A stretch of DNA of 64,000 nucleotides from positions 50,177,885 through 50,241,884 of the forward strand of contig CAIIXF020000001.1 in assembly GCA_903813345.2 (NCBI GenBank), read 5' to 3'. The notes under the pieces were generated by a model. The model saw only the letters and a program-made list of their open reading frames with translations. It had not been told where the DNA came from and searched no databases. Made by a program: the position numbers and the translations under genes. How positions within the stretch are numbered: the first letter of the stretch is position 1; each line of letters opens with the position of its first letter. The DNA is from Owenia fusiformis. Lineage: Eukaryota > Annelida > Polychaeta > Sabellida > Oweniidae. Of the stretch, positions 1-46,493 are shown piece after piece.

Positions 1-653
1 AAGAGTGGATGGAAAAACATTAGAGCTGTCATGTTCAATACGATATGATTATATCGATAATTGGTAAAATCTGAATTGTTATTTGACTTTGGTGGGCCTT
101 ATCTGGGGTCTATCAAGTACACTTATCTTAAATGGTTTATTATAGCACAGTAAGTGAAATGTAAAGTCTGCTAAATCTATATTGTTGTTAGGATTTCTAA
201 GTAGATGTTTCTCATAATTAACCTAGTAATATCCCATTGCAAAAACCAGAACGCATATGATCGTTGGGGTCGTTGAGAGAAAGACTGCAAGATTAGAGAT
301 ATAATCTCAAAAATTCCAAGATCTTAGACAAATAAAATCTTAGACACTTTAGACAAATAATTTTTTTGAAAGTAAAAGGTCCGTTGGCCTATAACAAAGA
401 GTCATAAAAAACTTCAAAATTTTGATAGGGGCTAACCATGGATGATAAGACAGGATAATGTAAGCAGTCACCCTAGTTACAATATGCTACCATCTGTTAG
501 ATTCACAGACATTGCACAATCAAAGATACAATTGACATTGACAGTGACAGCGATAATAAGCGCAGCGCCAAATTATGTTATAGAAAAGGCTTTATGCACC
601 ATGGACGTACCATAGTCATATATTAGACTTGCAGTTTTTGAAAATATTTGAAA
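1..653. other. Intergenic / 5' flank of the class B receptor
   Basis: AT-rich sequence without a convincing open reading frame, tRNA or complete repeat. Short direct repeats of a 'ttagacaaataa' motif occur near 320-362. A possible splice acceptor (cttgcag) ends at 634, just before the receptor start, so part of this region may be intron or leader. No TATA box could be assigned. Confidence 0.5.
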
Positions 654-3506
654 ATGGATAAACTTTATATTGTGACAATTTTAATTTCAATTTGTCATGT
701 GCAATTGGCATTTGAAGCAACTCGTGAAACCGGAATTTTTCAATCGACTGACAGTGAGAGTGCTGCTTTTGCCCAAAGAGATGGCCCACAAGATGTGTTG
801 GATAAATACACGCAATGTAGGGCCACGAGAGATTTGGATTTTGGTGCAATCGAAGTGGTTACTTCTTGTCCTTCAAATGACGGAGTTGCCATGTATGGAT
901 CCAACAATATGTTGTGCAATAATCCATCAACAAGTGGTGTACTCACTGCTATTCCCGTCACTGGCCAAACTGGAATCGTTTTCCGGAACTATTATTGCGC
1001 CCTATGCCATGGGGAGACTCTTGCGTCATTCTGGGAGGTTGATATGATGTGCAAAGGACTTCCACATATAACGGAGACACCACATTTTAGCGTAAAACCA
1101 TCAGAACTGGAGGAATATTTGGAGGGTCGTTGTACCATGCTTAGCATGGACCCACCATCTTGGACATACATTAAGCAATGTAAGTCATCGACCCCTACAA
1201 CGAAATCAATTCATAAAAGACAACTAAATGGAAACCCATTCTTTGAGATTGGAATAGCAGTCGCATCGTTTTCGATTCTGATGAACTTTGGTATAGATGG
1301 AAAAGCTCATATATTACTGGGAACGCAAGAAGACCACGATGTTAGACATTTGACGCAGTGTAACAGTGAGGAAATATACGATCCATTCAAAGAAACTTGT
1401 AGAACAGTTCTATGCGCTCATGATTTTGTTCCTATTGACGGCAAGTGCGTGCCAAAACTTCCTATTGCAATTGCACCATCCGCCTCTGAAGCAGAAAATG
1501 TTCGTGACCGCACCAGAAAGCAGCGTGTGTATCTCGTGATGAATATGCTTGTCCAGGTACAATATGAGATGTATGCCATTCTCTTGCATGGTGATTATAC
1601 AGAACTAATCGCACAGGGGTTGTCTGCACTTTTAGATGTCGCGGTTGATCGTATATCAAACATCATTGTTCACCCTGCCGATTTTGACCGAACGGGACTT
1701 AATGCCTCGCCTAACAAGCCAATTGGCAACAATACGAATTCAGAAAATAAAACTTTGGCGGAGCTCAGGAAAATACCAATTGCCTTTGTAGAAGTCAAAA
1801 TTACATTCTCATTAGGCGTCGAAAATAATCACAAATCAATTGATGCTGTCATTGAAAAAATGAATCGACTGATTGAAGATGGTCTGTTTGAGTTGGACCT
1901 TGGGGCGCTTATCGTAAAGGTCACAGGAGTGGAAGAACATCTTGGTGGGATAGTGCCCAAGGATGACACTTGGTGTGTAGATGGAATGAGAAGACTATAC
2001 CTGGACAAAGAATTTGACATTGGTATGTCAGACGGAAACAGAACCAATATTTACATACATGAGACGGATACACTTTATGAACATGGCGATTTTGATTTGA
2101 CATTATGCGTAAAGGGTGAATACTGGAAAGAAGATATCAGTGGATTTGTGTTCGTCTGTGAAAAAGTCCCGATGATAGTTAATGATGCGTGCGCACGTAT
2201 TGAACTTGATTCGGATGACAACTATGAAATTTTACCCAATCGTTCTATCGTGTTATCAGATACGATGTACGACTTGGACAGCTATCAATTTACTATCAAT
2301 GGGAGTGTGGTTATTTGCGTTCCACCTGATTATTATAAAACGAAAACCAATGTGGTCAACAGTTGCATACACAGTGTCACATTTGCGTACTTTGATATCA
2401 TTCAGCGCTATCTAACTCTTATTTTCAAAACAGTGTCCATCGTTTCTATTTTCATAACTATCGTTACATACACTATCTTTAAAAAACTGAGAAACCTCCC
2501 TGGGTGTAATGTCTTAAATCTTGCGGTTGCTTTGTTCTTTGCGGAGTTATTCTTTCTGTTATTCGGCGGGGCGTTTGTCAAAGAACACATCATTTGTTCT
2601 ATTGTTGCGATTGTCATCCATTACATGTTCCTCAGTGCTTTCTTCTGGATGAACACCATGGCATATGACATGTATTGTACATTTGCTTCAAAACAGATGA
2701 CGGTCCAACTAAGAGAGAAGACACAATATTGGTGGCGCTATATGCTTTACTCTTGGGGGTCTCCTCTCCTGATCTGCCTCGCATGTGTCATTATTGAATA
2801 CACGAAAATGTTTCCTTCTGTCAGAATAGGATATGGTAGGCCTATCATTGACATGGACACACAGACTAACATTACAAAAGAGACAACCTCTGATACAATA
2901 GGTATTAGATACGGCTGTTGGATCAGAGAGCCCCTTGCAACATTAATTGTATTTGGTGGACCCATCACATTGATTTGTGTTACCAATACAATCCTCTTTA
3001 TATTCACTATTTTTCGCTTACGTCAGAACTCAAAATTCAACCGCTCCCTGAAGAGTAAAAATAGACGTAAATTCTCCGAGTCATCTGTCACCAGTGTTTC
3101 GTCAAATGACGTCATGTTGTACCTCAGAATGTCATCATTCATGGGTTTTACTTGGATATTTGGCATCGCATCATCTGTTGTGAGTGGTCTTGCGAGACCC
3201 ACCGAACCGATTTGCTACCTCCTCTATACTATGAACTTGCTGTTCATTATTTTCAATTGTCTTCAGGGTGTCTTCCTCTTTGTTGCATTTGTTTGTAATC
3301 GTAAGGTTATTAAGTTATACAAGGACCTATTCTCAAGGGTCTTCTGTAAACAACAAGATCGCGAAGGTGGATCTTTCTCGCATAGGAAATTGTCCAAGAG
3401 AGATTCAAATATTTCGATTGTGTCTCTAAGTACGTCTTCATCTTCAGTTTTCAGTGACGACTCTTCAGTTACGATCACGTCATTCAAAAGGATATACGTA
3501 GACTAA
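654..3506 (+). CDS. Methuselah/adhesion-type (class B2-like) G-protein-coupled receptor, single exon
   Basis: A 950-residue plasma-membrane receptor. The first ATG after an in-frame TGA (639-641) is at 654; an upstream TTG at 648 is not a plausible eukaryotic start. Residues 1 to about 22 form a signal peptide (MDKLYIVTILISICHVQLAF). The ectodomain (about 23-584) is Cys-rich, with a YYCALCHGE motif near 113-121 and a second Cys cluster (EIYDPFKETC) typical of Methuselah-like and related invertebrate receptors. Seven hydrophobic helices follow at about 586-608, 619-641, 646-673, 696-716, 764-789, 821-842 and 853-881. RNLPGCNVLNLAVALFFAEL at TM2 is the class B2/Methuselah signature. The tail is Ser-rich (a phosphorylation-type tail). 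I see no GPCR autoproteolysis (GPS) site before TM1: the expected Cys-Trp box and HL/T cleavage motif are absent, which favours Methuselah-like over a cleaved adhesion receptor. Several N-glycosylation sequons are present. The ligand is unknown. The gene is intronless in its coding part, and no neighbour shares its strand within 5 kb. Confidence 0.88.
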   Translation: MDKLYIVTILISICHVQLAFEATRETGIFQSTDSESAAFAQRDGPQDVLDKYTQCRATRDLDFGAIEVVTSCPSNDGVAMYGSNNMLCNNPSTSGVLTAIPVTGQTGIVFRNYYCALCHGETLASFWEVDMMCKGLPHITETPHFSVKPSELEEYLEGRCTMLSMDPPSWTYIKQCKSSTPTTKSIHKRQLNGNPFFEIGIAVASFSILMNFGIDGKAHILLGTQEDHDVRHLTQCNSEEIYDPFKETCRTVLCAHDFVPIDGKCVPKLPIAIAPSASEAENVRDRTRKQRVYLVMNMLVQVQYEMYAILLHGDYTELIAQGLSALLDVAVDRISNIIVHPADFDRTGLNASPNKPIGNNTNSENKTLAELRKIPIAFVEVKITFSLGVENNHKSIDAVIEKMNRLIEDGLFELDLGALIVKVTGVEEHLGGIVPKDDTWCVDGMRRLYLDKEFDIGMSDGNRTNIYIHETDTLYEHGDFDLTLCVKGEYWKEDISGFVFVCEKVPMIVNDACARIELDSDDNYEILPNRSIVLSDTMYDLDSYQFTINGSVVICVPPDYYKTKTNVVNSCIHSVTFAYFDIIQRYLTLIFKTVSIVSIFITIVTYTIFKKLRNLPGCNVLNLAVALFFAELFFLLFGGAFVKEHIICSIVAIVIHYMFLSAFFWMNTMAYDMYCTFASKQMTVQLREKTQYWWRYMLYSWGSPLLICLACVIIEYTKMFPSVRIGYGRPIIDMDTQTNITKETTSDTIGIRYGCWIREPLATLIVFGGPITLICVTNTILFIFTIFRLRQNSKFNRSLKSKNRRKFSESSVTSVSSNDVMLYLRMSSFMGFTWIFGIASSVVSGLARPTEPICYLLYTMNLLFIIFNCLQGVFLFVAFVCNRKVIKLYKDLFSRVFCKQQDREGGSFSHRKLSKRDSNISIVSLSTSSSSVFSDDSSVTITSFKRIYVD

Positions 3507-9919: not shown

Positions 9920-11158
9920 GTAAGTATTTTATAACTTCTATGAGTGTAATGATAAACGATGGTGAGAGGTTGTACTTGTGTCGTTTTGTGATGTAAGTAA
10001 GTAAAGTGATACTAAATATATGTCTTTTATTGACTCTCTGATGTCGAACAATCACATATTGATCACTAAAGAGTACACTAGAGATCACGCTTGTGAGAGT
10101 TCAAACGTATATAGGTACAAGACATTTCAAGACTTACCTTTCCAGTGACAATAGTTTACCAATTTTGATTAAGCAGAAACGGCCCAATTAAACTAGATAG
10201 TATTAGTACAACAATGAAAGCTTACTCAGAAATATCTGAAAATTAAGTATATGAGATATGTTGTATATGTTTTCATTTTATCCCATCCAATGTTCCTAAC
10301 CATATCTATCATTCTTTTCCAGAAAACACATTGTTCAGATGTTTGAGAAATACATGGATAACCAAGTGCGTCATCTTGAGAAAAACGATGCGATCAATAT
10401 GTTAATGAAAGAGTATTCTTTAGATCACACCCAAGCCGAACAAATATTTCTGACATTCGATAAAGACAAGAATGATCTCCTCAGTATTTGGGAATTCCAA
10501 CATTTTTATATGTGTGCAGGCAACAAGTAAGGATTATTACGCGCCATATTTTTATCCTCTATGATATTCTTCTTATTCATTTGTATTCTCATGTATTATT
10601 TGACGATTCTTTTTACACGTATCTTCCCCTTTTCCTCATTGAATATCCTAATATAACAACTCCAGTATATAATGCCATGATAGCCAACTCAACTAACTTG
10701 CTACAGTGGTGGTATTTAATTAATTAAACATGCGTATATATGAAGAATAATAAAACTATTTCAACTTAATTTAGACATTTTCCCCAGTGGTCATTAGATA
10801 TTATTTGCAAATGTTTATTGTTCTTCTTACGAATATCTCTTACTCTACTGATATAAAGATGGCAACCCTGTTTCATTCCAGCTCTGCAGAGATAGTAGAG
10901 AAGTTTATGGCACTCGATACCGACGGTTCTGGAATACTCGAGTACGATGAGGCCGCAAGAGGTCTCGCTTCTATGAAAACAGCAGATGGCAGGGCTCTAG
11001 CTCCACAAGAAGTAGATTTCTTTCTTAAAACAGCCGCTGATGAAAATAACAAAATCAATTTGGGAGAATTTGTAAATCTTCTGGCCAGGTTGAAACTGTA
11101 TAGGGCACCGGCACCAAAACCAGGACAAAAACTGAAATATGTGAAGCCTTCTAAATAG
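9870..11158 (+). CDS. Small four-EF-hand calcium-binding protein (spliced gene, 176 aa)
   Basis: Joining 9870-9919, 10323-10526 and 10882-11158 gives 531 coding bases and a 176-residue protein; all junctions are GT-AG and in phase. It belongs to the calmodulin superfamily and has four EF-hand-like units. The loop at 63-74 (D-K-D-K-N-D-L-L-S-I-W-E) and that at 97-108 (DTDGSGILEYDE) keep all calcium ligands. The first unit (about 25-36) is degenerate, and the fourth (136-147, AADENNKINLGE) has Ala instead of Asp at position 1. Two calcium sites are therefore expected. The C-terminus is a basic, Pro-rich tail (RAPAPKPGQKLKYVKPSK). There is no signal peptide, so the protein is probably cytosolic. 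I cannot assign it to a named orthologue; it is not calmodulin, troponin C or centrin by sequence. It converges with the calmodulin-like gene ending at 14984. Confidence 0.78.
10323..10526 (+). CDS. EF-hand gene exon 3 (EF1 and EF2)
   Basis: Acceptor TTCTTTTCCAG ends at 10322; donor GTAAGG starts at 10527. The exon encodes KHIVQMFEKYMDN onward to CAGN and holds the canonical loop beginning DKDKND. Length is 204 bases, with two bases carried over at each end. Confidence 0.8.
10882..11158 (+). CDS. EF-hand gene exon 4 (EF3, EF4, stop)
   Basis: Acceptor TTTCATTCCAG ends at 10881. The exon encodes SAEIVEKFMALDTDGSGILE and the rest of the protein to the stop TAG at 11156-11158. An ATG-initiated frame starting at 10787 upstream is not needed: the splice acceptor and phase explain this exon. 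Confidence 0.82.
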
Positions 11159-14983: not shown

Positions 14984-15015
14984 TCAATTTTCTTGGGACA
15001 TCATTCTTACGAACT
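14984..15015 (-). CDS. Calmodulin-like gene, last coding exon (exon 6)
   Basis: This 32-base exon was found by phase and homology. On the minus strand the acceptor GTTGCAG precedes AG-TTC-GTA, and with the G from the previous exon it reads [10 protein letters not shown] then TGA (14984-14986). Canonical calmodulin ends EEFVQMMTAK, so the match and the intron position (after VNYE) are convincing. Confidence 0.75.
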
Positions 15016-18000
15016 CTGCAACATACCATCATTCTCATTAATACAGGGTGGTCAAAAAATGGAAATCATTACGCCAGTTTACTAATATCTTTGTTATTTT
15101 AGGAAATAATTTCGATATTTTACAAAATTATACACATTCAATTTCCTGCCAACCTACCGATGACCACCAGATTGACATTAACAATGTTACACAGCAAGTG
15201 GCCACTATTGCGCTAAAGGCAACTCTGCACACTTCGTCCAAAATGTTCTTACCTGTGACGATACGGCAAAAATAGAGTGTATGTTAATGACCCCATGACA
15301 ATCGGAGGAGGTCATGAAGTAAAGGTGATAAGAAATTGAATGATGTACAAATGTGTGAAATACCAGGGAGTAATTTGTTAAAATGACAAAGATATGAGGA
15401 AAATACAGGGTTTCCATTTTTGACCACCCTGTACAGGGTATACACTTATTTAATTTTTTAAATAAAGAATGAGATATATCAAGAACTGAAATAACGTAGT
15501 GTTATATGTCTGATATAATTAACATTATTGGCGGATATACTTGACAATACGGAAATATTTTGAATTTTCGAATACAGTCAAGTCGTATTCTCCATATTGT
15601 CTAGACATGTAGACATAGGATTGCGAGTATAACCGTGACAGTGACTCCTCATGGAAGAACTGCTTATTGTACAGAAAATATGACTGATTCAGTTGTGTAC
15701 CTTCATAATTAACCTGTCCATCGCCATCCATGTCTGCTTCGCGGATCATCTCATCCACTTCCTCTTCTGTTAGCTTTTCACCTGAAGAATTCAAACGTTA
15801 ATCAGGAAGACAGAAAGAATTTTTATTTAGTAGAAATACACAAAAGAGCACCTCCACATAGTCTACATTTTTACATTACATTTTTTTAGTATACACTAAT
15901 TATGCTTTTAATGTCACGAGATCAACTAATCCCATTATTTCCATAAACAATAATGGGATTAATATTGCAAGAGATTCGATCATGAAATGAATGATCATAC
16001 TCAGAAAGTAAGGGCACAACCACATACTTTACGTTACTATATTACAATGGATTCAAACAAAGCCATGTAATTATAACATTCCAAGAGTTTTTCTCCAATT
16101 ATTGTTTTTCTGTGAAATTAATTTTCTATGAATATGTAAGCCCATGTACCAACAGCACAGTATGCAAAAACACAATAGCGTAATAGTAGCCAGTCACATA
16201 GGAAAACAAATCCCCGATATTCCAAACTACTAGTACAAAGGAACACTGTCTGACAATCCTTGATCCACAGTCGTTCTGGAACCGTTATCACAATCCAGAA
16301 CCACTAGGGACTCAGGGACATTTCATTTCATTCATATTACACAATCAGAAGAGCTAAAATCATCCTTGCTGAAAGGGTATTTTACAAGTATATAGGCATA
16401 AATGAAGTCCTTTGAAGAAGGATGAGCTAAAATATTTCCAGTACTTTTGTCATCAAAAAATGCTGAAGATACTAGAATTCATTAGTCTCGAATGATGTTG
16501 GATGAACATATTAACAGAAATTGCATGTAGAAACCTATTGTATCGACCACTTACATTCATTTGATATGCGTTCATGGTGAATAGGGAGGAAATTCAGTAA
16601 TCACTAATAGAAAACAGCATTTAGTAATGGTGATGTGATTTACAGGGTAGCTGTAGTGGTAAAGGTGTATGTGCCATTGCTAGCTGTTTTCCTTTGGGAA
16701 ATTAATGATAATAGTAAATGGCTAGGTGGTTTCTTAACTGCATGTTATTTGCAAATGAAATAGAATTACTTATGATTTAATATTGTTGTTAAAGTTCATC
16801 ATCACTAGCTATGACATATACATTCGTCTTGATGCATTTCAAATAAAACCGAAGATAACTCAAGATGAGTTACTGCTCTCTAAGGATTTAAACCTCATCT
16901 AAAACATCACCCTCACCTAAAGATGTCATAAGGAACCGTAGTTCAGCTGCACTTATAAACCCATTTCCATCTTTATCGAGGAGTCGGAATGCTTCGCGGA
17001 TTTCGTCCTCTCTGTTTGATCGGTCCTGTTTCACCATCATGATGAGGAACTCTTCAAAATCTATTGTTCCAGACCCTGTAAACAAAGTATTATATTGTAT
17101 TTCAAGCTGATGAATTCAGGACATAATGAAGACTGGAAGATGTGTACTGTAACCCCCTATGTACACCACCTTCATTTTGTTGTTTTGGGGAAGGTACAGG
17201 GGGGGGGGGGGGAGGGAGACAGTCTTGAGGCAAGACTATAAAATATTCTCCATGAAAATTGAGAAAACTAGACTTGGTCTACAGATCGTTTCCACGTTCT
17301 ACTTAGGGTTAAAAGTGTGGTTTATGTGGTTTAAAGTGTGGTGCCATTCTGTCTACCAAACGTTGCTTTTTGTGCAATTATCATTGATTAAACAACGTTT
17401 CTCTCATGACATTCATATTTTTTAATCATGCTGTCCCCTCAGACAAATCTATGATGATAGGATATTACATGGTTAACAATATAGATTTCTGATGCATATG
17501 CCGTATGAAGCATCTAGTGTATTGGAATGTTGATTTATGTTCTGTAGATGTCGCTGTGCGAATCATTTAGCGCATCTGTAAAGTCGATTTACAATATTTG
17601 CAGATGAATGTCGATGGAATGTTTATTTACATATTTATTTGTAGACGTATGAATCGTTTAGCGTAACTAGAACGTTTTTACAACATGTACAGTAGATATC
17701 GTTGTATCTGTGTGTAGATGTCGCTTTGCGAAGCTTGTCGTATATATGTATGTCAATTTACAATATGTAGATTTTAGATGTAGTTGTAAAAATCATTTAA
17801 CGTTTCTTTAAGTTGTTGTTTACAATTATGAAGATGTCGTATAAACCACCTAGTGTGCCTGTATTAGATGCTGATTTGTAGGTAGAGATGGACAAAACGA
17901 TAATTGATATTTTCAAAATTAGTTTTTCTGACCTGAAATTTGCTCCCCCCCCCCTTGTTGGTTCCCAGATCCGCCCCTGGGTTAAATAAACATTGCTGAT

Positions 18001-21000
18001 GCATCATTTGTTTAAGATTTCGCTAGAAAGTGCCCTTAACAACCAAAATATCAGACAAAATATTGTTATTTTTGTGGTGGATTTAGATTTTGAAAAATAA
18101 ATGATTTCAAACATTTATTTTCAGAAATGAGACTAATCCAATGAAGTATTTAAATGATTGTTAAATACATTCTCAATTATATCTAATTCATGGAATTTAA
18201 AAAATATCAATTGTCGTAAAGAGGTAGCTGTCGACCCAGAGCTCCAGAAAGCTAGAAGAGAAGTTCATATAGTTCACCCTATGCAGACAGAGCCTGTGGG
18301 AAATATTGGGTGCGGAGCAAATGAGCGGAGGGTGCGGAGCTAACGGTTATTTTTGAATTTAAATTTGGGATATTTCTGAAACTAAGCCGTTTTGGGACTT
18401 CAAATATACCAAGATATGTGTATTTGACACCAAATATCAATACAATTGTGAAAATAGTAGTGCAATTCATTCTATAGCGACGCAGTGTGCCTTAAACCTT
18501 TCCCAGACCTATATATTTTGAAATTATCCTTTTAATACTGAGTCCCCAGCATTCATAAAAAATGGTGTTCAAGGTGCACTATCTATACAAATTATTTTTG
18601 CATCTTGGAAGCTTAGAGGGGCTCATATCTGAAGAACATTTCCGAATTTTTATAAAATCACACAGATACTGCCTGGCTTCCAAGATGCAAAAATAATTTG
18701 CATGGGTAGTGTATCTTGAACACCATTTTTTATGAATGCTGGGGACGCAGTATTAAAAGGATAGTCTCAAAATATATAGGTCTGGGAAATGTTTAAGGCA
18801 TACTGCGTCGCTATAAAATGAATTGCACTACTATTTTCACAATTTTATTGATATTTGGTGTCAAATACACATATCTTGGTATATTTGAAGTCCCAAAACG
18901 GCTTAGTTTCAGAAATATCCCAATTTTAAATTCAAAAATGACCGTTAGCTCCGCACCCTCCGCTCATTTGCGCCGCACCCAATATTTCCCACAGGCTCTG
19001 TCTGCATAGGGTGTAGTTGTAACAGTATGAAACTGTCTGTATACATGCGATTGGTTTGTTTTACAAGAACATATTATGGACAGCATATTAAGAATACCAA
19101 AAGACAGTATACCATTGTACAGCTAAAACGACACAAGATTATATGCCACGCAATCATATTCAAAATATCGATTTATGGTACCAGAACACAAAATCAAAAA
19201 TAGGAAAAGAAAATGATTGATTTACAGCTTGAATTGATCATGTCGACTAATCAATCAACCGCTATTCCATATGGACTCCAGAATCAAAGGTGAACACACA
19301 ACCCATTCCAGCGATACCCTTTGCCTATGAATTGCAATTGATCATGAAACAAACTTGATATTTCTATCAAGGACATCCATCACACATTGATAAAAAAGAA
19401 GACAAGCAATTGCAAGAACATGATATGTGCAAATATAAACCAACGAGTTGCTTATCTGGAACTTAAATCGAACAATACCAAAACGCGCTAGTATAACTTG
19501 AATTTGCAAGGCCAACATGACATGAAACAAGAAATGTAGGCAACAACAGAAATTGATGGGTTCAACAATTGGCGTAAAGACGTTCATGATTAGTTGTTCA
19601 AATGAACTTTCTTGGATATTGATGAGTTGGCGAAAAGCATTTATTATAGAAGTGTGGACTATGCGCCAACTTTGTTATGGTAAGAGCCAGCAGATTTCGG
19701 TATATGTTTTCGCCTTGCAGTAAGTGAAATAAAGCTGCGTTTTGTTCCGAGCATTCTCCGAAGCACATGGATTTAGAAAATATAGAATGTTCGATCAAAC
19801 ACATTCAATACAAGGCGAAAAGTTAACAAATATTTTTACCGAAATCTGCAATACTAGGTAGTGCTAGGTACCTAAGCCAAAAGGGGACATCTGAACAAGG
19901 CTGTGGATACTAGTATTAGACGAGGGTCATGGGCTAATCCTTTGTGTTGTGGAGAGCTACTTCTGTCCGCCACAACTCAAGCAAAAATATCGAGAACCAT
20001 ATATTTTATGCAAGAAAAGCCAAACTACTTGCTTTATGCACACGTCGTATGTACTTGTACGTCTACAATCTTTAATCAATTTTGAATTTAGATGATACTT
20101 TTAGATGTAGCCCATATAGAAGGAACCTAATTAAAACATGAATCCACACTTTTGAGTATTCGCAAATAGCATTCATTTCACATAAAACCTCCTAAAAGAG
20201 CAAAATGCTGAATTTGAGAAAATCGTATCAACATCAAAACAATATCCCAGATTTTTGAATTGTTATTGCCTTGTTAGGCGCACTGATTATGTTTTCATTT
20301 TTCTACCTATCATGAGATGAAGAATTAATAAAATCCTCAGATGGAGTCCTCTAACCGGATATGAAATGCAAGACATGGCTGAAAGTTATCAGCCTCTCAT
20401 TAGAGGGCTGTGGAGCTTCTCATATACAAAATAATTGCTCTTCAAGAGGGAAATGAGTTCCAGGAATATACTGATGTAGTATAATGGTACTCAAGAGGCT
20501 ATTGAATCAGAATTAAATTAAATAGACTACTATCTTAGATAACTTGACTTAATTTAAGATATCAATCATAATTCAATCATTTAATCAATTCGGTGTTGTG
20601 TATTTGTACTTTTACAAGGATACCACGAGTTTAATTTATAAAGAGTTAATTTGGAAGGTTATTTTACTTTACCTTTATCCTCCAAGATTCCAAAGCAAAA
20701 TAATACATAAATAATATATATGCAGTAATTTCTTTATCGGGAGGTCTGGTGTTCTTTCAAAAGTAATTTTTGTAATTTGGTCATTTTACTCCGGCCTATT
20801 GTCCACTAGCCTTGCCCAAGTCGGTCTCTTTTACTATCTTGATTTCTATAATTCAAGATCAGATAAGTAAAAAAATACCGACTTGGGCAAGGCTAATTGT
20901 CCACCACTACGTACAACACTCTAAACAGGACTAAAGTATACATTTTAAATGCTGGCTTTTTAATGGTAGTTTTAAGAGATTTCGATTCTGAAATGAATGC

Positions 21001-24000
21001 TATGTCACCGTGGCTATGTAGCTACTTTCTATGAAGAAGAAAATTCTGTGACTGCAATTCCCATTGAGAAGTTACATTTGAATCGACCTAATCTACTGTA
21101 ATCTACGTAAGGCTAGATCAAGATAGAAATTATCTTTTACTAAAAAGCGGAAATGAAGCTCTCTTTTAAGGAAACGAAATCAAAGTATTGAAACGAGTTG
21201 CAAGTCATGGGGTTCACAGGAAGTTGTTGGTAAGATTTGAACCTGTCTGGTTCTCCAAGAAAAACAGCTCAACTTGTAAGCCCAACGCAAAAGCTGAATA
21301 TCCTGTTAGGCTTTAATGTTACCTGTGATATTAAGATCTCATAGAGCTCATAAGTTTACCTCAGCCAAGAAGGAGCTTCTGTTTACGTTATAAGTTTGAA
21401 GATGTATAAATACAACAGGAAGTAAGGTCATTTATACAGATTCCGATTGCATTAGAACTGCTCCCAATAACAGACTAGCAGAGATCCATTGCGCTAAAGA
21501 TAGACCTTATACGTTCACATTTCTAAGTGCGTTGTTTCATCTGTGCGCCACCCTTGTTAAATCTTATCTGATGATTAACATTGTCTCTCATCAGTTATCT
21601 CAGAGAACCATGTTTCCTTCGCTTCATAGCGAGAACCAAAATAGAAAGATTCAAATCGCGGTAAGACGTTCATGCATAATATTTTCTGCCATAACATGTT
21701 GTCCATTTTCTCAAATCATTAATTATGACTACTTGAGCTTATGCAATTGGCGCAAGATAGTTGTTAAGGATTATACCGTATTATTTAGTCAAGTCAATAC
21801 GGTGCTGGTCGAATAAGTTATTAAATCAGAAATAGCCTCCATTTAGATGATGACCTTGAAGGTAAAGAATAAGAGCTCATAATAGAGGATCGTTTCCAAA
21901 AGTATACATGTGTCTGTGGGTGCTTTGCCCATTTTCGAAAAACACACGGGCATATTTCTCCTTTAATTGTAGAATAATGTTCTTTGTAATTCTGCCATCA
22001 ATTCTATCTTTAATTTCATCTTAGACTAGATAGCCACATATCATTCTAACAATGACATTCATTTCCCCTCCAACCTCTTCGATCTTACTTTGCTTCCGTT
22101 TTCCACAACATCATTGATAAAATGTGATTTACTTCAATTACCTTCACAAATCGTATGTGGTTATGTAATCGAATACATTAGAAATAATAGTTCCATCTCT
22201 CTATGCTATATGATACCTCTAGATATTACTTTTGTAGTAAAACGTGTAAACCATTTATCCTGTTTTTTCTAATAATCTTTGAAGAAGACACTGCGACTAA
22301 GATATATTAGGTATTATGTTCTGTATAATATAGGTTAGTTTAAAAGTCAGTTTGCTAGTTGTTCCATTGTCTTGCTTATATGTTATTGCTAACTCGAATT
22401 GTTTTTCTATACAAGTAGTTGCTTGGTCTATACTTGCTATTGGGGTTAAGTTGTTTCTGTTACATTTTTTCAGTTTCGACATTTATGAAAAGCTTGTACA
22501 TATAAAACTGGTTTCTAAGCCAGGTTATCAGGTTACCATGACAATGAGATCTCCAAGTATTGTATTGTATTGTATTGTATTGTATTGTATTGTATTGTAT
22601 TATATTGTTTTGTATTGTATTGTATTGTATTGTATTATATTGTATTGTATTATATTTATTGAGGCAAAAGAGGACTCCGTATGACTCGTTGACATTGTCA
22701 CATTTGGGTACTGGGGGAGGAAGGGAGTGGTAACATACTTACCATCAGCATCTACCTCATTGATCATGTCCACTAATTCGTTCTCAGTTGGATTTTGACC
22801 CAGAGATCTCATGACTGTTCCCAATTCCTTGGAGCTTATCGTACCATCCCCGTCCTTGTCAAACATTCTAAATGCTTCTTGGTACTCTAAAAATAAAACA
22901 ATAGGGTGAAAAACAAAAACAAAAGGGAACGAATATTCAACTATTTCGCTCACCATAGCAAACCATTTCTTCGATCGTTCATAAGTGAGGTTAAAAAGTA
23001 CTGGAAGCAAAACGCGTACGTGAAACCTGACGAGCAAGCAGAAAATGACGTGACTTGACGTCACTGTATTTTACTTGATACAAGGTAGCTATCTTATTCA
23101 CGGGCTGAGAACATCTTGTTCTGTAGATTATCATGGGTAAGTGATACAGTGGAAGTTCTCGTTCATGTTCATCGAACGATATGTTCTCTCCCTGTTGCAT
23201 TATGAAGCTGGATAATATTGGTAATATTTTCAAACGCTTTTTAGTTCAGGCCAATCAAGCGTGAAGAAAATTGTGTAGAAAATCATTTACTCGAATAATG
23301 TATGGCTCGTATATTTTGCACTGGAAGTTTGGTGAATGAAGCTTTAGCTAGGCCAATGCTGTATGTATATTCAGATGATACTAAGGAGTTAAGGAGTTAA
23401 GCAACACGTTTTTAGAGAGCTTGAGCATAAACGTGTAGAATTATGATACTCTAGTTTTGGGGTTAGTTCTCCCCTTTGTAATATTTACTTGCCCGATTGT
23501 GTGTAGAGGTCTAAAGAACAAGTTGCAATTATGTCAACGGTACAATTGGAAGGGGAACAATAATCCATAGAAGGTCATAATATTACACGTCAACGTTCAC
23601 GTTTTCATAAAGAGGCAAAGCTTCACCTCACCTCCATACGTTCTCAAACGTCAACGTGTACAAGTACGTAAAGATACTAGCCTTTGACTCAAGTCTCATA
23701 ATGTGTAACTTGTCTTTCCTGCATATAACGATTCTTGATATTTTGACCGGAAACGCCATACTGAAGTTTTAAAGTCGTTCACCTCCATATTATTTGACTA
23801 AAGTATTTTGCAGGAATACAGTTGCTTCAACTATGTTCATTGCATTAGAATCCTTATATGTAAACGTTCTTCACTGATCATTCACATCTCTTAATTGACA
23901 GATTCGGGTTTATAACTGCATACAGTTGGACTGCAATTGCAGAATATGTCAGAAATTGTTTTGAAGGTTTTTATTTATGTCTTTTCAAGACGTATCTCTT

Positions 24001-27000
24001 TGGAAATCAGCACGTGTCTGTTAAACAACTTATCCAATGATTTGGATGTTCCTGATAACGAGAGCTCGGCATTCATTAGTCTCCGAAAATGTCATCTCAA
24101 ACAAGGATTACTCTCGTCTTATGGAAAGTTTATCATTATATTTTAATCCGGGAACGAAGCCATTTATTTATTTACATCGTGTTAATATGTCAGAGAAACA
24201 AGAGACAACGTAATGCCTGACTAATACATACCTTTTATATCTTCCTCTGTGAGTCTCTCTACCTACAACAGAAAAAGGCAATATAAAATCATCAACTGCT
24301 TCCTCTAATCATAAGGGTTGCATTTCCTTAAACAATAATAACATATTCATTCAGTTTAGAACAGTTCCGCTATCATGTCTTTCAGACCCTCCTCTATCAA
24401 TTCAACAGTCACGCGATTTCGTGAGACAAAATAGGCACGTGGTACAATGAGCAATAGTTGCATACGGGATAAGTTGCTCTTATAGCATGACATCCAAAGT
24501 GATGTATTCAGTATAAGACAACAGTTTTTAAAATGGTTCTAAAAACATGTGTGGAACGAGAATACATGTAGATGATACCAGTATATTATGCAACGTTATA
24601 TAAAACTTTAATTGACATTCGGTATCATAACATGATTTCATTTGTCATTACTATCAAAAGCTACATATTTTAACTACAAACACTAACTAAACTAATGATC
24701 TCGTCCTAATAAGAAGAGTACCCGTTGATACGTTAACGAGTCTGTAATCATGATATAGTTCATGTACGTTACTTAGCAGGAAATGACAATATGGTTGCCT
24801 TGCGATCCATGTCACATTATGTTATCCATGTGTATAATATCATTATGCTAGTATATATGTATTTATAATCATTATGTTGGTATATGTAAGACTTTGTATT
24901 AAATAGTTCTACGTTGATTAACATAATGTCACAGAAAGGTAGGCGTATACTATTAGAATTTGCTGACTTGTAAATGAAGATACCACGAGTTTAGCAGGGA
25001 GTTTAGTTACAAGGTAGATGAAGCTCTCTTTTAAGAAGACAAAGGGGACTATGAAGACGGAGCTTTATATGATTATGTACTATTCGATTTCTACATATAA
25101 GTCAATTCTAACTGACTAGAGTGTTTAATTGAGTGTCGTGGGGAAGGGTGGGAAGTAGTGGGGTAGAATGCCCATGGGGTAGCGAGTGTGGTTTGGGTTG
25201 CCTTCGTCTCAGTTGATTAATCAGAAAATGAACTCGAGGCAATAGCAACAACTAGGTCTATATCCCATCAGATTTCTAATTAGAAATTGTCAGTAAGACA
25301 TTAATAGAACTTGTAATTCAATACAATTAATTACGAATATTGTTCAACATTTCAGTAATTATTGGTAGTTATTTCCCTGTGTATACTCCAGGCGTATTTC
25401 AAGTTCCTGGCATTATGTTTTGTAATGTCTATTGGAATGGAATGAAGCTAACGCTCTGTATGAGGTTGAAGTGGCATATTCAATGTAGCATGTACAAGTT
25501 ATGTTTTGCTATGATGCAATTTAGCAAATAATCATTGACTATAAATGTATATGTCGGTTGATATACAGTATGTTTATGTAAAATATTGTAATAATATATG
25601 TAGCCGGATAAACTGGTGTTCACGGCATTAAACATTCATTCGATCATCTATTTTGCTAGGCATTTTTTATGACTTTAACATGACATATTCGTCAAGCATC
25701 CTAGTTAATCCAATTTGAAAACTCAAAATGAAACAAAATAATGAAGTTAAACTTGGTACAGTTTAAGGGAATTTGGCGTTTTACCATAAATAGAAGGATG
25801 ATAATCTTGACCAACGTACGTTGACATGAATATACCTGCCTGAAACAGATTATTTTAAAACGATATTTGTATGACAAGAAAATGGAAAACAATTCCTTTC
25901 AAAATTTTTTTTTTCATTTAAGTATATCTCTAGGATAATTAGCTTCTCTGCTTCAGCAGACAGCGATATGTTGTAAATCGCAAAAAATTACAACTGACAA
26001 ATGATGGATATACTTCCTTAACGAATCAACTTTAGTTCAGGTTCTTCAAGAAATATAGTTCTATATCGACACTAAAATGTTCACATTGACTTGGAAGATC
26101 CAGCTCTGTTTCTTACCATGAAATCATTAGCAGTCATGTTCAAAATATAGATAGGTCTACCACGAGTGTTTTATCAACAAAGATATTGCAGACATAATAA
26201 CCCCAATTTCCTGCTATTATATATCGGTAATTTATTTAAGGATCGAAGAATCCTGTGTAATTCTTTATTAGAACTTTAAAAGCATGAGTGCTTGCAGTAA
26301 CTAAGCCGTACACATAACAGGGGCGTAGCCAGCTTTCAGTCAGGGGGGGGGGGGGGGGGGTGCGATCGTGGCACAAGCAAGCCAAACTTTTTTCAAGACT
26401 TGTTTGAATTTTACAAAAATTGATGGAACTTCCTTCAAAATGTGAATTAGAGTAATCATTTATTTCATTCATTTAACATCATCCGTATCGAGAGGTCGGC
26501 TTTTAATTGGGGTTTGGGTTGTATGTGCGATCCTCTCTTTATCAAGTTTATTATCAAGAAAATATGTGTCATTCATTTTCTTCCAATATGTCTTTAGGGG
26601 TATGTTAAGCCAGAATTTGCATTTTTACTCAAAATTCGTTGGCATTACTCTTTGAAAAAAGCTTCTTAAATATACTCCTGTACATTGCTGTCTCTTGGTA
26701 CATATATTCCCGATGGATAACCCAAATGTGTACATGTAAGTGAGTATAAAACAAACTAGAAAAAGTGACGAAAAAATATAGAAGGAAGAAAATGAGACCA
26801 GGAATAAAGGAAAATTACATCACAAGCTGGTATTAATCAAAGGCATTAACAATTTGTTTCTCAGTATAAGAAGGTTTCAGCTAGAAGGTAAATCATAGTG
26901 AACTGTCATTTTATATCTTTCTGAGATAAACTTGATTATGTTCATTGACTGTAATATATCTAAGCCATAGTCTTGGATCTTCTTCATTCCGCTCTTGGCT

Positions 27001-30000
27001 AGAATGATCAATCACTGTGTTAAACTGATTTCTTTGATTTTATCTGTCATGTTCTTGTATTTGAGGAGTGCCACCCAAAATCCCATAATAAGCCAGTGTA
27101 ATAAAAAGTTGGTGTAGTGTAATAACCGAGATGAGACATGTGACATTGAAAACAGGGTCATATTGTCATTTACTGTTAAGTGTATGATAATAGATATATA
27201 ATTATTATATCATTGCTAGAAATTGTATGATTTGATTGGTCGATTAAGTACCATTTGATCAAAAAATACCATAACGTATTTCACAGCTTCCTCAATTTTA
27301 GAATGATAAAAGACGTATTGCCCGGCGTAATAAATAAATGATTATAGACAATGTCTAGCTATGATATAATAAAACAAATATTTCATTCTATATTCGGGCA
27401 ATACCTGTTGCACTTTCAATGATTTTTTGCAGCTTAATATGTTTGTTTTTGGGACCAAATACCTTTTACCTTGTTTTGATATTTGACGTTCTTTGTGGGA
27501 GTTTATGATAGTTGGAATCACAAATTGCCAATATAATGGCAATTACTAATTACATTCATATAGGTCTCTACAGTACATCATATATATATATATGATTATG
27601 GCTATATAGAATGTGAGCCTTTCTACAAGGAAAGATGGAGGGATCGATAATAAATTTGCAGAAAAATTACAATGATAAGCTCTTCCAAAATGTTTCTTCG
27701 GGCAACCTTTTTTATTGTTTATCCTTAAAGAAAAAATTACGTTCATACAATAATCTTACTTATACAATATAGTGATTTGGTTCAATTTTAAATCACCAAT
27801 TCTTATGTGTTTCAAAGAGTTATCTCTGCAATGGTGACCCACGATCGGAAATCATGAAGGCATAGTTGCTTTAATAGTGATAATCTATTAATGGAGTGAT
27901 CGCTTAACAATGTGATTGATAATGACATACGGCAAAATGTTGCCCTGGCTACAGGATCGATCTGTAACATATATACTATTGAGCCATTATGTAAAGCTGA
28001 TAACGTTGTTACTTCCATGGTAAGGCCTTTAAGATATATATATTTTCGCATCGTTTGGCCATTATAAAGCGCATATAGTTTTCCATTTAGTTTGAATGCA
28101 TAACTAGTGATCAAATACACACAATTAAGTAAACTCCGGATACATCATTGTTAATTAGAGACAATTATGGTTCAGAATGGTTCATTTGTGTCTATGGAGA
28201 CCATGTCCCATTTCATCCTAACGTTAAAGGGTTTACGCATAGCGTTCAGCAAATAGAACTCTCGTTGTTGGTGTTTCTCACCGTTTGGTATAAAAGGCGC
28301 GGACAAATACTCAGGGGTACACAGGTTGAGGTCAATGTGCAAAGACGTCTGCCTGTTTTTGTAGTAATAGAATTGAAGTATAAATCGGCACACATATGAA
28401 AAGGACATTTTTACGAGCATTTTGTCTAATCAATTGAACATTTTATTATTGAAGTTTCAGGATCTTCTATTTGTATTTTTTTGAAAATTATCGGTTGAAT
28501 GAATGAAACTAAACATTTGTGAAATTCACAGAGCAAGAAGATCTCGAGGACAATATTTCTAAAATGTTTTTGATTTTTGAAAAACGGTCAGGAAATCCAC
28601 TCGGGGCCTTAGTAAAAATTGATATGTATGGGATTTGTGGTAAAAAATCGATGCGTTACATTTTTTCAAGTCTCTAAAAGCAACTCTTATTATTTGAAAA
28701 ATAAAGAAATCGGTTATTGTTTTGTAAATTTCGCCATGACAATATTGTGCAGTTAATTTTTTTTTGAAATCAGACCTAAATTAGAAGGTTAAATAAAGGT
28801 AAACTTATTGCTTGTCTCATTCGCCTTCAAAACCTTACACAATTTTGAAAACCTTAAAAGCGTTCATATAAGACGATTTGAACTGTAGCCGCTAGGCAAT
28901 TGTAACGTCATAAAAGCACACGTTTCAATGAATAAAATGTGAAATTTTAGTAAAATTCTGATCAGTATTTCAAAAGTTATTCTGATTTCAACGAACCGTG
29001 TAAGCGTGAAATGTTACGCCTTACAGCGTATCTGACGATGTCGGAGTACATTTAACTTAAAAAATATGGTAGATCCCATCATACTTTTCAAGGAAAAATA
29101 ATTTCAGTGAAATGCGAATAAAAAATACTTCAAAATGATATATAATACACATAGGGGAACATGGGGCAAAACGGCCCTCTGGGGCAAAGTGGCCCATCGA
29201 AATATCTTTTGAACTATAAAAAGATGGTTCTTCAAAAGTCACAAAATCGAATTTTGAAATATCTGCCACCTTCTCGAGCGTCCATTTTTAACCAAGCAGC
29301 GTCTCGCTTTACGTAAGAGGTAATTCTACTTTTCACCCTCTTTTTTGGAAATTACCCCTCTCACGAGAATCTCTAAAAAATCCGGCAACAATAGAATATC
29401 GTTTTGATTTAACATTTTACATAGAGTGTGCACATTTATTATTTATTTGTAAAAATTTCGAGCTTCAAATATTAGGCAAATTAAAATGACGTCTATTTGA
29501 AAATTCACATGTCTTTGGGGCAAAACGGCCCACACATGTTATAACATACAAAAATCTTATTGTGCAAGAACATTTGGTTTTCAAATGTAACAATTTTAAC
29601 ACATATCGAATGACTAGAATTATGGTAGGGGTTAAGAATACTTTATCTGTCAAAGGTTTGAACGTCTGAGATAAGATGTTTGTGGACGAGTCTTGTAATT
29701 GATTAATTTTGGTTTCAAAACCCATGTAACAGAGGGTGGGCCGTTTTGCCCCACCCATGGGCCGTTTTGCCCCACTCTCGACAATATTTTTGACCATTGA
29801 AAAATCACAGAAGATAGTCCTAGGAAAGTATAAAACATTCGAAAAATGTAAACCACAAACCATTAATAAAGTGGAACATCAAAGTGCGCGATGATTGACA
29901 TATACGAAAATACCCCGTACAGAACAACTTAAAATTAAATTTTTTGGGCCGCTTTGCCCCATGTTCCCTTAGTTAGCTTTTTAAATAAGGCAGATATTAA

Positions 30001-30594
30001 CGCTTAAAGCTGAGATTAGCCCGTATTTCCCGAATTGTCCCCAGGTCCGTGCACGTCATAACAAGGATTTATAATGGCTCGTGCCAATATAAATTATCCT
30101 TTGGATAATTCACCCTCTAAATTGTAAGTTTTTCTACCCGTGGATCGTTCTCGATCATCAGAGAGTCAATTTTAATAAACTGGAATTTACCAAAGTCCCC
30201 TAATTTCTTAAAAATAGACCGAACCAGAAGAATGTTTTGAAGCCGCCATATTGTTTTATACGGGAGTACGGGAATAAGAAACTGACAAGATGTTTTCAGT
30301 AAAAATGTAGGAAAGACGACATACATACGTATACTTTCAAATCATATATGGCATACTTACCATTCGCTGGACCTCCAACTGTTCACGTAATTTCTCTTCT
30401 TGAGACTTCTGTCCATTGTTGTTGTTGGGACCTGCTCCCTGTGGCGCAATATCACTGGGAGGCGGAGGCCCTTGATTACTGTACGAAGCTTGACTTTTCC
30501 CTTTACTCTGACTCTTGCTTTGTCCTTGACTCCTACTCTGACTTTTACTCTTACTTTTCCCACCATAATCACCGGAACTCTTTTTATTCGACAT
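14984..30594 (-). CDS. Calmodulin with a 77-residue N-terminal extension (spliced gene, 226 aa)
   Basis: Exons 30594-30361, 24262-24232, 22886-22743, 17075-16917, 15781-15701 and 15015-14984 join in phase to 681 bases. Residues 1-77 are a low-complexity Lys/Ser/Gln extension with a PPPP run, NNNN and a short charged helix-like segment. Residues 78-226 (149 residues, the usual calmodulin length) align throughout with calmodulin. The four loops at 98-109, 134-145, 170-181 and 206-217 all keep the Asp/Glu ligands, so four calcium sites are expected. Relative to calmodulin the central linker is one residue shorter and altered ([16 protein letters not shown]), and the C-terminus is one residue longer. 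Exon sizes 31 and 144 match the classical calmodulin exons 2 and 3. It should act as a calcium sensor binding target helices; the basic tail could localise it. It is clearly not troponin C. The gene spans 15.6 kb with repeat-filled introns. Confidence 0.85.
15044..15431. mobile_element. Mariner-type MITE, 388 bp, in the last intron of the calmodulin-like gene
   Basis: Inverted ends CAGGGTGGTCAAAAAATGGAA and its partner are flanked by TA (15042-15043 and 15432-15433). No transposase frame remains. It lies only 29 bases from the 3' splice site of the last coding exon, so the insertion left the acceptor intact. Confidence 0.78.
15701..15781 (-). CDS. Calmodulin-like gene, exon 5 (EF4 loop)
   Basis: An 81-base exon. 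The acceptor AATTCTTCAG and donor GAAG/GTACAC bound a reading of [20 protein letters not shown] then DGQVNYE. The calcium loop [12 protein letters not shown] is completed by the first codon of the last exon. Confidence 0.85.
16917..17075 (-). CDS. Calmodulin-like gene, exon 4 (EF2 end, linker, EF3)
   Basis: A 159-base exon between TTTACAG and TTTAG/GTGAGG. It reads [20 protein letters not shown] then [20 protein letters not shown] and so on to MTSLG. It carries the altered central linker. Both ends are phase 1, matching its neighbours. Confidence 0.87.
17150..17240. repeat. Second copy of the AGTCTTGCC/poly(G) repeat
   Basis: AACCCCCTATGTACACCACC, a spacer, GGGGAAGGTACAGG, a run of about 14 G and then GACAGTCTTGAGGCAAGACT. 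It resembles 4010-4101. It lies in the intron just upstream of exon 4 of the calmodulin-like gene. Confidence 0.4.
17880..17980. repeat. hAT-like MITE right end with poly(C)
   Basis: The right terminus reads CAGATCCGCCCCTGG, preceded by a C tract and TGACCTGAAATTTGCTCCCC. The same arrangement occurs at 3905-3957. The left end is not clear. Confidence 0.4.
18275..19013. mobile_element. Foldback element, 739 bp, CAC ends, 5-bp target-site duplication
   Basis: Two arms of about 335 bases are near-perfect inverted copies around a short loop (about 18612-18676). The ends are CACCCTATGCAGACAGAG, and the flanks carry the direct repeat TAGTT (18270-18274 and 19014-19018). Both arms contain the same small open frame because they are copies. 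There is no transposase. CAC ends with 5-bp duplications are known from Transib/ProtoRAG-like elements, so a link is possible but unproven. It lies in an intron of the calmodulin-like gene. Confidence 0.8.
19690..19850. repeat. Short inverted repeat, about 160 bp
   Basis: GCAGATTTCGGTATATGTTT plus CGCCTTG at 19690-19717 is answered by CAAGGCGAAAA and ACCGAAATCTGC at 19811-19850. This is an imperfect foldback; no duplication was identified. Confidence 0.45.
20807..20895. mobile_element. MITE, 89 bp, perfect 19-bp ends, 9-bp target-site duplication
   Basis: TAGCCTTGCCCAAGTCGGT at 20807-20825 is perfectly inverted at 20877-20895. The flanks carry ATTGTCCAC on both sides (20798-20806 and 20896-20904). 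A 9-bp duplication suits Mutator-like elements; an 8-bp hAT with a chance extra match is the alternative. Intronic and non-coding. Confidence 0.85.
22557..22655. repeat. (TATTG)n pentanucleotide microsatellite
   Basis: About twenty units of TATTG/TATTA within 100 bases. It lies roughly 90 bases downstream (in gene direction) of exon 3 of the calmodulin-like gene, inside the intron. Likely polymorphic in length. Confidence 0.9.
22743..22886 (-). CDS. Calmodulin-like gene, exon 3 (EF1 and start of EF2)
   Basis: Exactly 144 bases, the size of exon 3 in animal calmodulin genes. The acceptor is TTTTTAG and the donor is GATG/GTAAGT. It reads [20 protein letters not shown] then [20 protein letters not shown] and so on to EVDAD. 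This block is the most conserved part of the protein. Confidence 0.9.
24232..24262 (-). CDS. Calmodulin-like gene, exon 2 (31-base micro-exon)
   Basis: A 31-base exon between TTGTAG and AAAG/GTATGT that reads [10 protein letters not shown] plus one base. Calmodulin has ADQLTEEQIA here, and animal calmodulin genes have a 31-base exon 2 at this place. Phase 0 at the start and phase 1 at the end fit both neighbours. Confidence 0.85.
26319..26361. repeat. hAT-like terminus with poly(G) run
   Basis: CAGGGGCGTAGCCAGC is followed within 20 bases by a run of about 18 G. The terminus resembles the CAGGCCCGTAGCC family; no right end was found nearby. Confidence 0.45.
29153..29970. mobile_element. Terminal-inverted-repeat element with GGGGAACATGGGGCAAA ends, about 0.8 kb
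   Basis: The left end GGGGAACATGGGGCAAAACG pairs with GGCCGCTTTGCCCCATGTTC at the right, with TA on both outer sides. The motif GGGCCGTTTTGCCCCA or its complement recurs at least four more times inside (about 29170-29200, 29515-29532, 29735-29775). One minus-strand frame of 132 codons crosses it but has no recognisable domain. Likely non-autonomous. Confidence 0.6.
30361..30594 (-). CDS. Calmodulin-like gene, exon 1 of the coding region (N-terminal extension)
   Basis: Starts at ATG 30594 and encodes 78 residues: [20 protein letters not shown] and more Ser/Lys/Gln repeats, then [12 protein letters not shown] and [18 protein letters not shown]. The donor CGAATG/GTAAGT follows directly after codon 78, an ATG. 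A splice acceptor (ATTTTCAG) at 30657-30658 precedes the start, so an upstream non-coding exon is likely. There is no signal peptide or membrane segment. Confidence 0.8.
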
Positions 30595-30656
30595 TGGATA
30601 TAAGTCGATTGGTAGGTTTGCCTTAAGGTTTGTTTGTTAGCTTCTTGATTCCTTAT
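30595..30656 (-). other. 5' leader of the calmodulin-like gene after a leader intron
   Basis: The acceptor AATTTTCAG/ATAAGG on the minus strand (AG at 30658-30657) opens a 62-base leader before the ATG. The first exon and promoter lie further right; a possible minus-strand donor TTTC/GTAAGT is at 32455/32454, but I could not confirm it. Confidence 0.45.
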
Positions 30657-32003
30657 CTGAAAATTTTAAAGAAACATAAGACTATTTATTCCATACTTAG
30701 TAAGCTCTCGGGGAGATAACAGCGGCGAGATATGTAAAAGTTATACCTGACATTTCCCGTTCAATAATAGCGACAGATAAAATAAGTTGCTGAGCGCTTA
30801 TAGTCTTTTTCTACTTCGTGATAAACTAAATTTTATCAATTTCAAAATTATGGGATTGATCAGTTCGCCATATCTATTTTTTCAACATGTTCAATTCCAT
30901 TGTGCAGTTGGATAAAATGGATCTAACAATTCAAACAATTATTTTTAGAAATTTATTGATAACATCTTCCTTAATCCTGAGGCTAGTTGTTATAAGATAA
31001 ATCTCGTTTCTAATACGAGAAATCAAACTGTGATTGAAAAGGGTATATTTTGAGTTATTCCATACTCAAATATTTTTCCCTCACAATAAACAGAAAACAA
31101 AACTGATATTAAAAAAATCCCGTATCAGATATCGGGGATATCGCCCTCGGTCTTTCCTCGCCCCTTCCTTGGCCAATATCATATTTTCTCTCGGAATAAA
31201 AGTCATATTCCATCCCTATTAAAAACCTCTATATTTATCCAGACAACAAGCGTCCACTCAGTAAAGTCATCAATCTAAGTCTTCATCATGGTCAAATACG
31301 CATATTTGATACAAGTGAGCAGCACAATTATTAGATTGACGTATTAAAACCAGCGTAAAGCAACATTTGTCTCAGAGATCTATAAAATGATAAGTCGGCG
31401 TATACGGTATATGAGAGCTCGTAATAAATGAGATAATTCACAGGTATTATAGTTAAATATAGGATTTAACAGACACCCTTGGAATGGGTAAATTGTGAAG
31501 AATTCTTCTTCTCCAGATTTCTCAGCATGACGTGAGCTCGAATGTTTTCATTCACTCGAAGCATAACTGATGTAATACTCCACTTAATTAATAGGCGTTT
31601 TTCTGCTTTTCTGGATGATATTTCCGACCATAATTAACAGAGGAACTAATTCTAATTCGAGGTTAATCTTAATCATTTGTTATTTTACAAAATATTTTAT
31701 ATTTAGCAATTGCCTACTTTAAATCCTTCTCGGAAAAATTAAAATCTTACAAATCCAAATGAAAAGGTTTGCATACATTTAAAAAAATCCTCAATATTGC
31801 AACCCGTGGGTGTACATGCCCAGTACACTCAGATGAAGCTTTCTTTTAAAGGTAGCACCTCAAATCATGGACATGTACATTTACACTAAACTGAAATGCT
31901 CAAAAACGACAATGATTTAGTCTAGCGTACTCGTGCTGAAATCAAACATGATGACTTTGGCGCGTTCACGTTCGATTGTAGTTCACGTAATTTTACTCGT
32001 CAT

Positions 32004-46435: not shown

Positions 46436-46493
46436 AGCATTCACTTCTTTTATAGCCTTTGGTGAGTAGAGCAGCGTCCGATATACGAAAAGT
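46436..46493 (+). other. Splice acceptor and leader of the class A receptor
   Basis: TTTTTAATCACTTACAG ends at 46437 and is a good acceptor. An in-frame TAG at 46467-46469 shows that the sequence between it and the ATG at 46494 is leader. An upstream non-coding exon is therefore likely; 44821-44870 (TTGTCTTTCAG before it, GTAAAT after it) is one weak candidate. Confidence 0.4.

Follow-up and report, generated by a model that had tools for sequence, protein, structure and literature searches.

A calmodulin-like gene of Owenia fusiformis with a putative basic N-terminal tail joined at the probable ancestral start codon

The locus and its gene model

The window analysed here is a 64-kb stretch of DNA from Owenia fusiformis (G000:C1:50177885-50241884, in an assembly of 498,259,871 bases and 525 contigs), whose minus strand harbors a calmodulin-like gene of six exons. 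Direct reading of the sequence and subsequent splicing yields 681 bases that encode 226 amino acids without an internal stop, with GT and AG bordering every intron. The exons comprise 234, 31, 144, 159, 81 and 32 bases, the last including the TGA, and their borders proved identical to those given in a preliminary description of this DNA. Exon 1 (30361..30594) covers codons 1-78, i.e. a 77-residue extension rich in Ser, Lys and Gln followed by Met78, and its 3' border reads CGA-ATG/GTAAGT, the slash marking the donor site. Across intron 1 of 6.1 kb follows exon 2 (24232..24262), the counterpart of the 31-base exon of calmodulin genes, which has equal length in the paralogs L001-L005 and L008 introduced below. 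Exon 3 (22743..22886), which measures 144 bases in L001-L005 as well, encodes EF-hand 1 and the beginning of EF-hand 2, while exon 4 (16917..17075) supplies the remainder of EF-hand 2, the linker and EF-hand 3 and is bounded by an extra intron, at the position of which L005 also has an intron. Exon 5 (15701..15781), with a counterpart of likewise 81 bases in L005, encodes EF-hand 4, and exon 6 (14984..15015) contains the stop.

Upstream of exon 1 lies a putative 5' leader (30595..30658, minus strand) of 64 bases devoid of ATG, which begins at an Inr-like TCAG at 30658. A TATA-like AATAAATA is situated 32 bases further upstream (pair 30690/30658), and the spacing is right; since the minus strand of the 64-kb window contains 19 pairs of this type, it is a weak candidate based on motif only. 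Within intron 3, a long inverted repeat was spotted by eye at 18262-19010, with its arms around 18.98 and 18.32 kb, which may be a small transposable element.

Several other features occupy the window. The plus strand carries probable exons of another small EF-hand gene at 10300-11155, convergent to the calmodulin-like gene, whose Pfam EF-hand matches are weak, one just at the curated cut-off and the others below. Two long frames without a stop, also on the plus strand, correspond to a secretin-family receptor (642-3503; 7tm_2, E 2.6e-23) and a rhodopsin-family receptor (46470-47636; 7tm_1, E 5.3e-24). Finally, a weak Anoctamin match on the minus strand (60735-61052; 22.2 bits versus a cut-off of 28) perhaps represents one exon.

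The calmodulin-like body

From Met78 onwards, the spliced frame encodes a body of 149 residues, in which four 12-residue calcium loops start at residues 98, 134, 170 and 206 and all match the canonical pattern, in full agreement with the 149-residue body and four intact loops proposed earlier. The body shares 75.5% identity over 147 residues with human calmodulin and 69-76% with the five modelled calmodulin copies L001-L005 of its own genome. Pfam assigns four EF-hand_1 stretches among 14 families matched in total; the sole family reaching the tail, Sigma54_CBD from residue 63, is below cut-off and surely spurious.

Among the best 60 of 616 PDB matches, the main match invariably starts at query residues 76-82. 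Fifty-eight of these 60 are named calmodulin or calmodulin fusion, and the other two are engineered proteins, namely RCaMP and a fusion of myosin light chain kinase, myosin-X and a fluorescent protein. No natural centrin or light chain is found among these best 60, which argues against an identity as centrin or myosin light chain. An assignment to CaBP/caldendrin was likewise rejected, as the EF2 loop is canonical and the linker is one residue shorter than that of calmodulin instead of being lengthened.

The phase-0 intron directly behind the start ATG, succeeded by exons of 31 and 144 bases, is that of the calmodulin gene lineage, and the four canonical EF-hand loops are those of a true calmodulin. 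On the other hand, true calmodulins are near-invariant proteins of 149 residues without an added domain; because the body is only 75.5% identical to the human protein and, given translation of exon 1, would carry 77 additional residues in front, it is classed as calmodulin-like.

Paralogs and the ancestral start position

With 150 of 164 candidates scored, a calmodulin query of the genome gave at least 70 matches at the level of exons with E values up to 0.001, and ten paralog loci were taken for comparison, of which L001-L004 are arranged in tandem on C8 and L005 resides on C10. A calmodulin-like 31-base exon is present in six of the ten (L001-L005 and L008) and is followed by a 144-base exon in L001-L005. 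The next exon is undivided in L001-L004 (243 bases) and split into 162 and 81 bases in L005; the window gene has its split at this position as well, with parts of 159 and 81 bases, and is one codon shorter.

Upstream of the 31-base exon, within the 6.5-8.4 kb searched, the pattern ATGGTRNG occurs exactly once each in L001, L002, L004 and L005 and reads ATGGTAAGT (ATG/GTAAGT) every time, at a distance of 0.7 to 3.8 kb from first exon to 31-base exon. L003 has no ATGGTRNG in the range searched, and this start pattern is hence not universal among the paralogs, as the more distant L008 illustrates as well. In the whole window, ATGGTRAGT is limited to three sites, one of them being the donor of exon 3. 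Given that ATG/GTAAGT recurs in the same phase in four of the five close paralogs, this comparison of sequences places Met78 very probably at the ancestral start position. Two tenets of the preliminary description are thereby sustained: Met78 as the old start codon, in view of the single upstream ATG/GTAAGT of these four paralogs and the 31- and 144-base exons of L001-L005, and the calmodulin gene layout of an intron behind the ATG followed by exons of 31 and 144 bases, which is seen in the paralogs and in the window gene. The frame before the start ATG is closed by an in-frame stop 6, 16 and 13 codons upstream in L001, L004 and L005, respectively; it is open for 46 codons in L002 and for 77 in the window gene.

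A tree of 12 rows calculated to find the sister paralog left all nine inner branches unresolved. As some of its rows are only fragments from tblastn output, the intron position common to L005 constitutes the only hint of kinship. In L006, L007, L009 and L010, no calmodulin-like 31-base exon was found and the first exons were not recognised; ATG/GTAAG occurs upstream in L007 at 5.8 kb and in L009 at 5.7 kb.

The more diverged calmodulin-like paralog L008 (G000:C5:15.37 Mb) retains the 31-base exon (EGVLTEQDIR). Its 15 kb of upstream sequence contain no ATG/GTAAG, a single ATGGTGTG, and two frames that end at donors after 55 and 53 open codons, none of these candidates being convincing; L008 may possess an unusual N-terminus as well. 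L001 and L004 (G000:C8, about 36.77 and 36.71 Mb) differ at 17 synonymous sites but not in protein sequence across the 139 codons that were compared, and their last exons differ (EFVTMMTSK and EFIKMMMSK). Within the tandem cluster, both flank two copies with signal-peptide-like leaders, L002 and L003.

Translation of the N-terminal extension

The 78-residue product of exon 1 contains 16 Ser, 11 Gln and 10 Lys at a net charge of +7, with +8 residing in residues 1-41 of the extension; computed composition and charge thus bear out the low-complexity, basic Lys/Ser/Gln-rich stretch of 77 residues noted before. Fifteen codons ahead of Met1 stands an in-frame stop, TAA. Considering both strands of the window, ATG-started phase-0 frames of at least 78 codons end at 3 of 52 GTRAGT sites; the exon 1 donor is one of the three, and the other two fall within the long frames of the two receptors (GPCRs). 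In simulations of 5,000 runs each, the probability of 78 open codons amounted to 0.024 with the exon's own composition and to 0.0046 with that of the flanks. In light of these values and the 3 of 52 sites, the openness of exon 1 is unusual, albeit not statistically overwhelming. Moreover, a genome search that skips simple repeats found no second copy of the extension or its flanks, and hence no sign of a repeat or a donor gene. An origin of exon 1 from a repeat or transposon is accordingly unsupported within the reach of that search, and the only other protein match, at E 7.73 and 26% identity, does not qualify as donor of the tail. We infer that the extended form is transcribed, and its translation appears somewhat more probable than not on the basis of the sequence.

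A different possibility, which we regard as rather unlikely, is that the gene employs two promoters, the long form arising from the exon at 30594 and a short, near-canonical form from a first exon inside intron 1. A candidate for such an alternative first exon is the ATG/GTAAG at 26117..26119 on the minus strand, 1.9 kb before exon 2, which is preceded by an in-frame ATG 18 bases upstream (MTANDFM). The recognised first exons of L001, L002, L004 and L005, which lie within 0.7 to 3.8 kb of the 31-base exon, are in accordance with this placement, and PMC10777021 provides a precedent in MYL1, a single gene that gives rise to the two light chains A1 and A2. However, the donor GTAAGA at 26119 differs from the GTAAGT of the four paralogs, and we estimate that chance alone would produce an 8-mer of this kind roughly once in several introns of this size.

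It is also unlikely that the extension represents the ordinary, untranslated leader of a calmodulin gene that is open by chance, with synthesis starting at Met78 and either transcription beginning inside the exon or the upstream ATGs being skipped. Stops are scarce in several frames of low-complexity DNA rich in purines, and indeed frame +1 and one reverse frame of exon 1 are open too; the above-mentioned value of 0.024 obtained with the exon's own composition is consistent with such an explanation. In codon usage, the extension scores -0.229 in frame, no better than the -0.189 of frame +1, and 6.9% of 846 overlapping non-coding window-frames match its score or better. Four coding stretches used as positive controls, which were drawn from the training set itself, reached -0.072 to 0.379 in frame. 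Since the score does not separate the extension from non-coding DNA, codon usage was discarded as proof of coding. Furthermore, the context of Met1 is weak (C at -3, T at +4), and an out-of-frame ATG 28 bases past Met1 has a strong context (A at -3, G at +4) and opens a frame that runs to its end across Met78. On similar grounds, a start codon without Kozak context, the CaBP paper casts doubt on an extended calneuron 1 (PMC2873350). An untranslated extension is opposed, in turn, by the leaders of L001, L004 and L005, which are closed within 6 to 16 codons, and by the fact that a transcript initiated upstream of Met1 would meet two out-of-frame ATGs of strong context before reaching Met78. The earlier proposal that a former leader turned coding is therefore upheld in part: homology of the start position, 77 open codons and the single-copy nature of the exon speak in its favor, while codon usage, the weak Met1 and the strong out-of-frame ATG do not.

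Very improbably, exon 1 is part of a different transcript without a junction to 24262, and the calmodulin-like gene begins elsewhere. This reading draws on the 6.1-kb span of the intron and on a splice model derived from sequence alone but is countered by the phase-0 ATG at the end of exon 1, precisely as in the start exon of the paralogs, and by the consensus donor and acceptor.

Signal-peptide-like leaders in two tandem copies

In L002 and L003, the frame of the exon that precedes the 31-base exon continues past the start position into a signal-peptide-like leader. The respective first exons lie on the minus strand at about 36765044-36765130 (L002; locus G000:C8:36762000-36770900) and about 36735635-36735718 (L003; locus G000:C8:36733000-36742900), and their junctions read MLRRNIMRVLMTTICVILLTNKITGSLA-M/ADQL... 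and MLRRNMHALVVIICVILLTNEITGALA-V/DDRL.... Signal peptides are composed of three parts, namely a basic start, a hydrophobic core and small residues in accordance with the -3/-1 rule. Both leaders feature a basic start (MLRRN), a hydrophobic core with a 12-residue hydropathy of 2.59 in L002 and 3.43 in L003, and small residues at -3 and -1 (SLA and ALA). The ancestral ATG is replaced by GTG in L003, which consequently depends on a start further upstream or on a different first exon; in L002 the ATG is retained and offers a second possible start.

Between the two leaders there are 5 synonymous and 9 non-synonymous changes (dS 0.281, dN 0.159) in addition to a length difference of one whole codon. 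In a simple simulation of neutral drift that departed from the L002 leader and imposed 14 substitutions plus a single forced deletion of 3 bases, 39% of 20,000 runs remained open with Met1, and a core as hydrophobic as that of L003 emerged in 0.08%. Since a weaker signal-like leader (hydropathy of at least 2.0 and the -3/-1 rule) was kept in 10% of runs, the simulation is suggestive of a retained signal-peptide-like leader, not decisive. The bodies of both copies are intact down to the stop, and body dN/dS ranges from 0.13 to 0.19 across the five pairs with L002 or L003 as a member. Only these two copies were found to carry the leader exon, and the first exons of L001 and L004 yielded no match at E 0.001; judged from these sequences, the leader may hence have originated as a new exon, not by conversion of an existing leader.

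With such a leader, a close copy of calmodulin would have become a protein of the secretory pathway with cytosolic copies unaltered in the same cluster. Work on oyster shell formation and on extracellular calmodulin in Dictyostelium contains the terms calmodulin-like protein, signal peptide and secreted, and a protein of this secreted type may well have been published before. Among the titles and abstract openings surveyed, mostly outside subscription journals, none describes the window gene or the fusion of an N-terminus to calmodulin at its start-codon intron. Tentatively, at slightly short of even odds, the start-codon intron may be a recurrent point of entry for new N-termini that was used at least twice independently in this genome, for the basic tail and for the signal-peptide-like leader of L002 and L003.

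Proposed mechanism and significance

Taken together, the best reading of the window gene, to which we assign a probability of roughly 0.55, is that of a diverged calmodulin paralog with a disordered basic tether. In ordinary calmodulin genes the first exon contains the leader and the ATG only, and here it would have become coding upstream of the ATG. Owing to the phase-0 position of the first intron directly behind the ATG, whatever open frame lies upstream is continuous with the body, and thus a tail could be gained with the sensor left intact. The predicted product is a four-site calcium sensor on a disordered, basic tail rich in Ser, Lys and Gln, with a charged, probably helical stretch connecting the tail to helix A. 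The tail is polar with few hydrophobic residues and contains 13 overlapping Ser-Lys/Arg pairs as well as 5 Ser-Gln pairs. This composition, along with the analogues light chain A1 and centrin treated below, leads us to favor a disordered tether for a polyanionic surface, most likely one such as actin, membrane or RNA, where serine phosphorylation could tune the tail and the lobes would bind their targets upon a rise in calcium.

Calmodulin ranks among the most conserved proteins, with a body that permits few alterations. Through a phase-0 intron immediately after the start codon, duplicates can acquire a tether or a secretion signal while the sensor remains unaltered; if confirmed, this would constitute a simple route for re-targeting a universal calcium sensor. 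Such an intron also bears on the annotation of calmodulin genes, whose prediction in the absence of transcripts is difficult according to the abalone paper, as their first exon contributes the start codon only (PMC6171432).

Comparison with known systems

With canonical animal calmodulin genes, represented by L001, L004 and L005 of the same genome and by abalone CaM A-D (PMC6171432), the window gene shares the intron behind the ATG and the succession of a 31- and a 144-base exon, and with their products the four canonical calcium loops. By contrast, its body shares only some 75% identity with human calmodulin or that of its own genome, its linker is one residue shorter, its leader is open for 77 codons, and its exon 4 is divided as in L005 instead of whole (243 bases) as in L001-L004.

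Regarding the mode of action of the tail, we favor myosin light chain A1 as the best analogue. PMC10777021 describes this MYL1 product as an EF-hand protein that binds actin through an N-terminal tail, some 40 residues long and enriched in Pro, Ala and Lys, in which the first residue and adjacent lysines are important for the binding. However, the body of A1 is a myosin light chain rather than a calmodulin, and the tail of the window gene is rich in Ser, Lys and Gln instead. Centrins, according to PMC8622359, feature an unstructured, positively charged N-terminal region of 20-25 residues, and in two of them this tail is required for calcium-induced self-assembly; the tail of the window gene is about three times longer and its body of the calmodulin type. 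Caldendrin, the long form of CaBP1, combines a calmodulin-type EF-hand body with a long N-terminal extension that is confined to mammals according to PMC2873350. CaBPs differ in their longer linker between EF2 and EF3 and their inactive EF2, whereas the window gene has a canonical EF2 and a shorter linker.

Calmodulin-like proteins with N-terminal extensions also include human CALML6 and nematode cal-1. Long-tailed calcium sensors are already known as a kind, to which the window gene would add a calmodulin-type variant.
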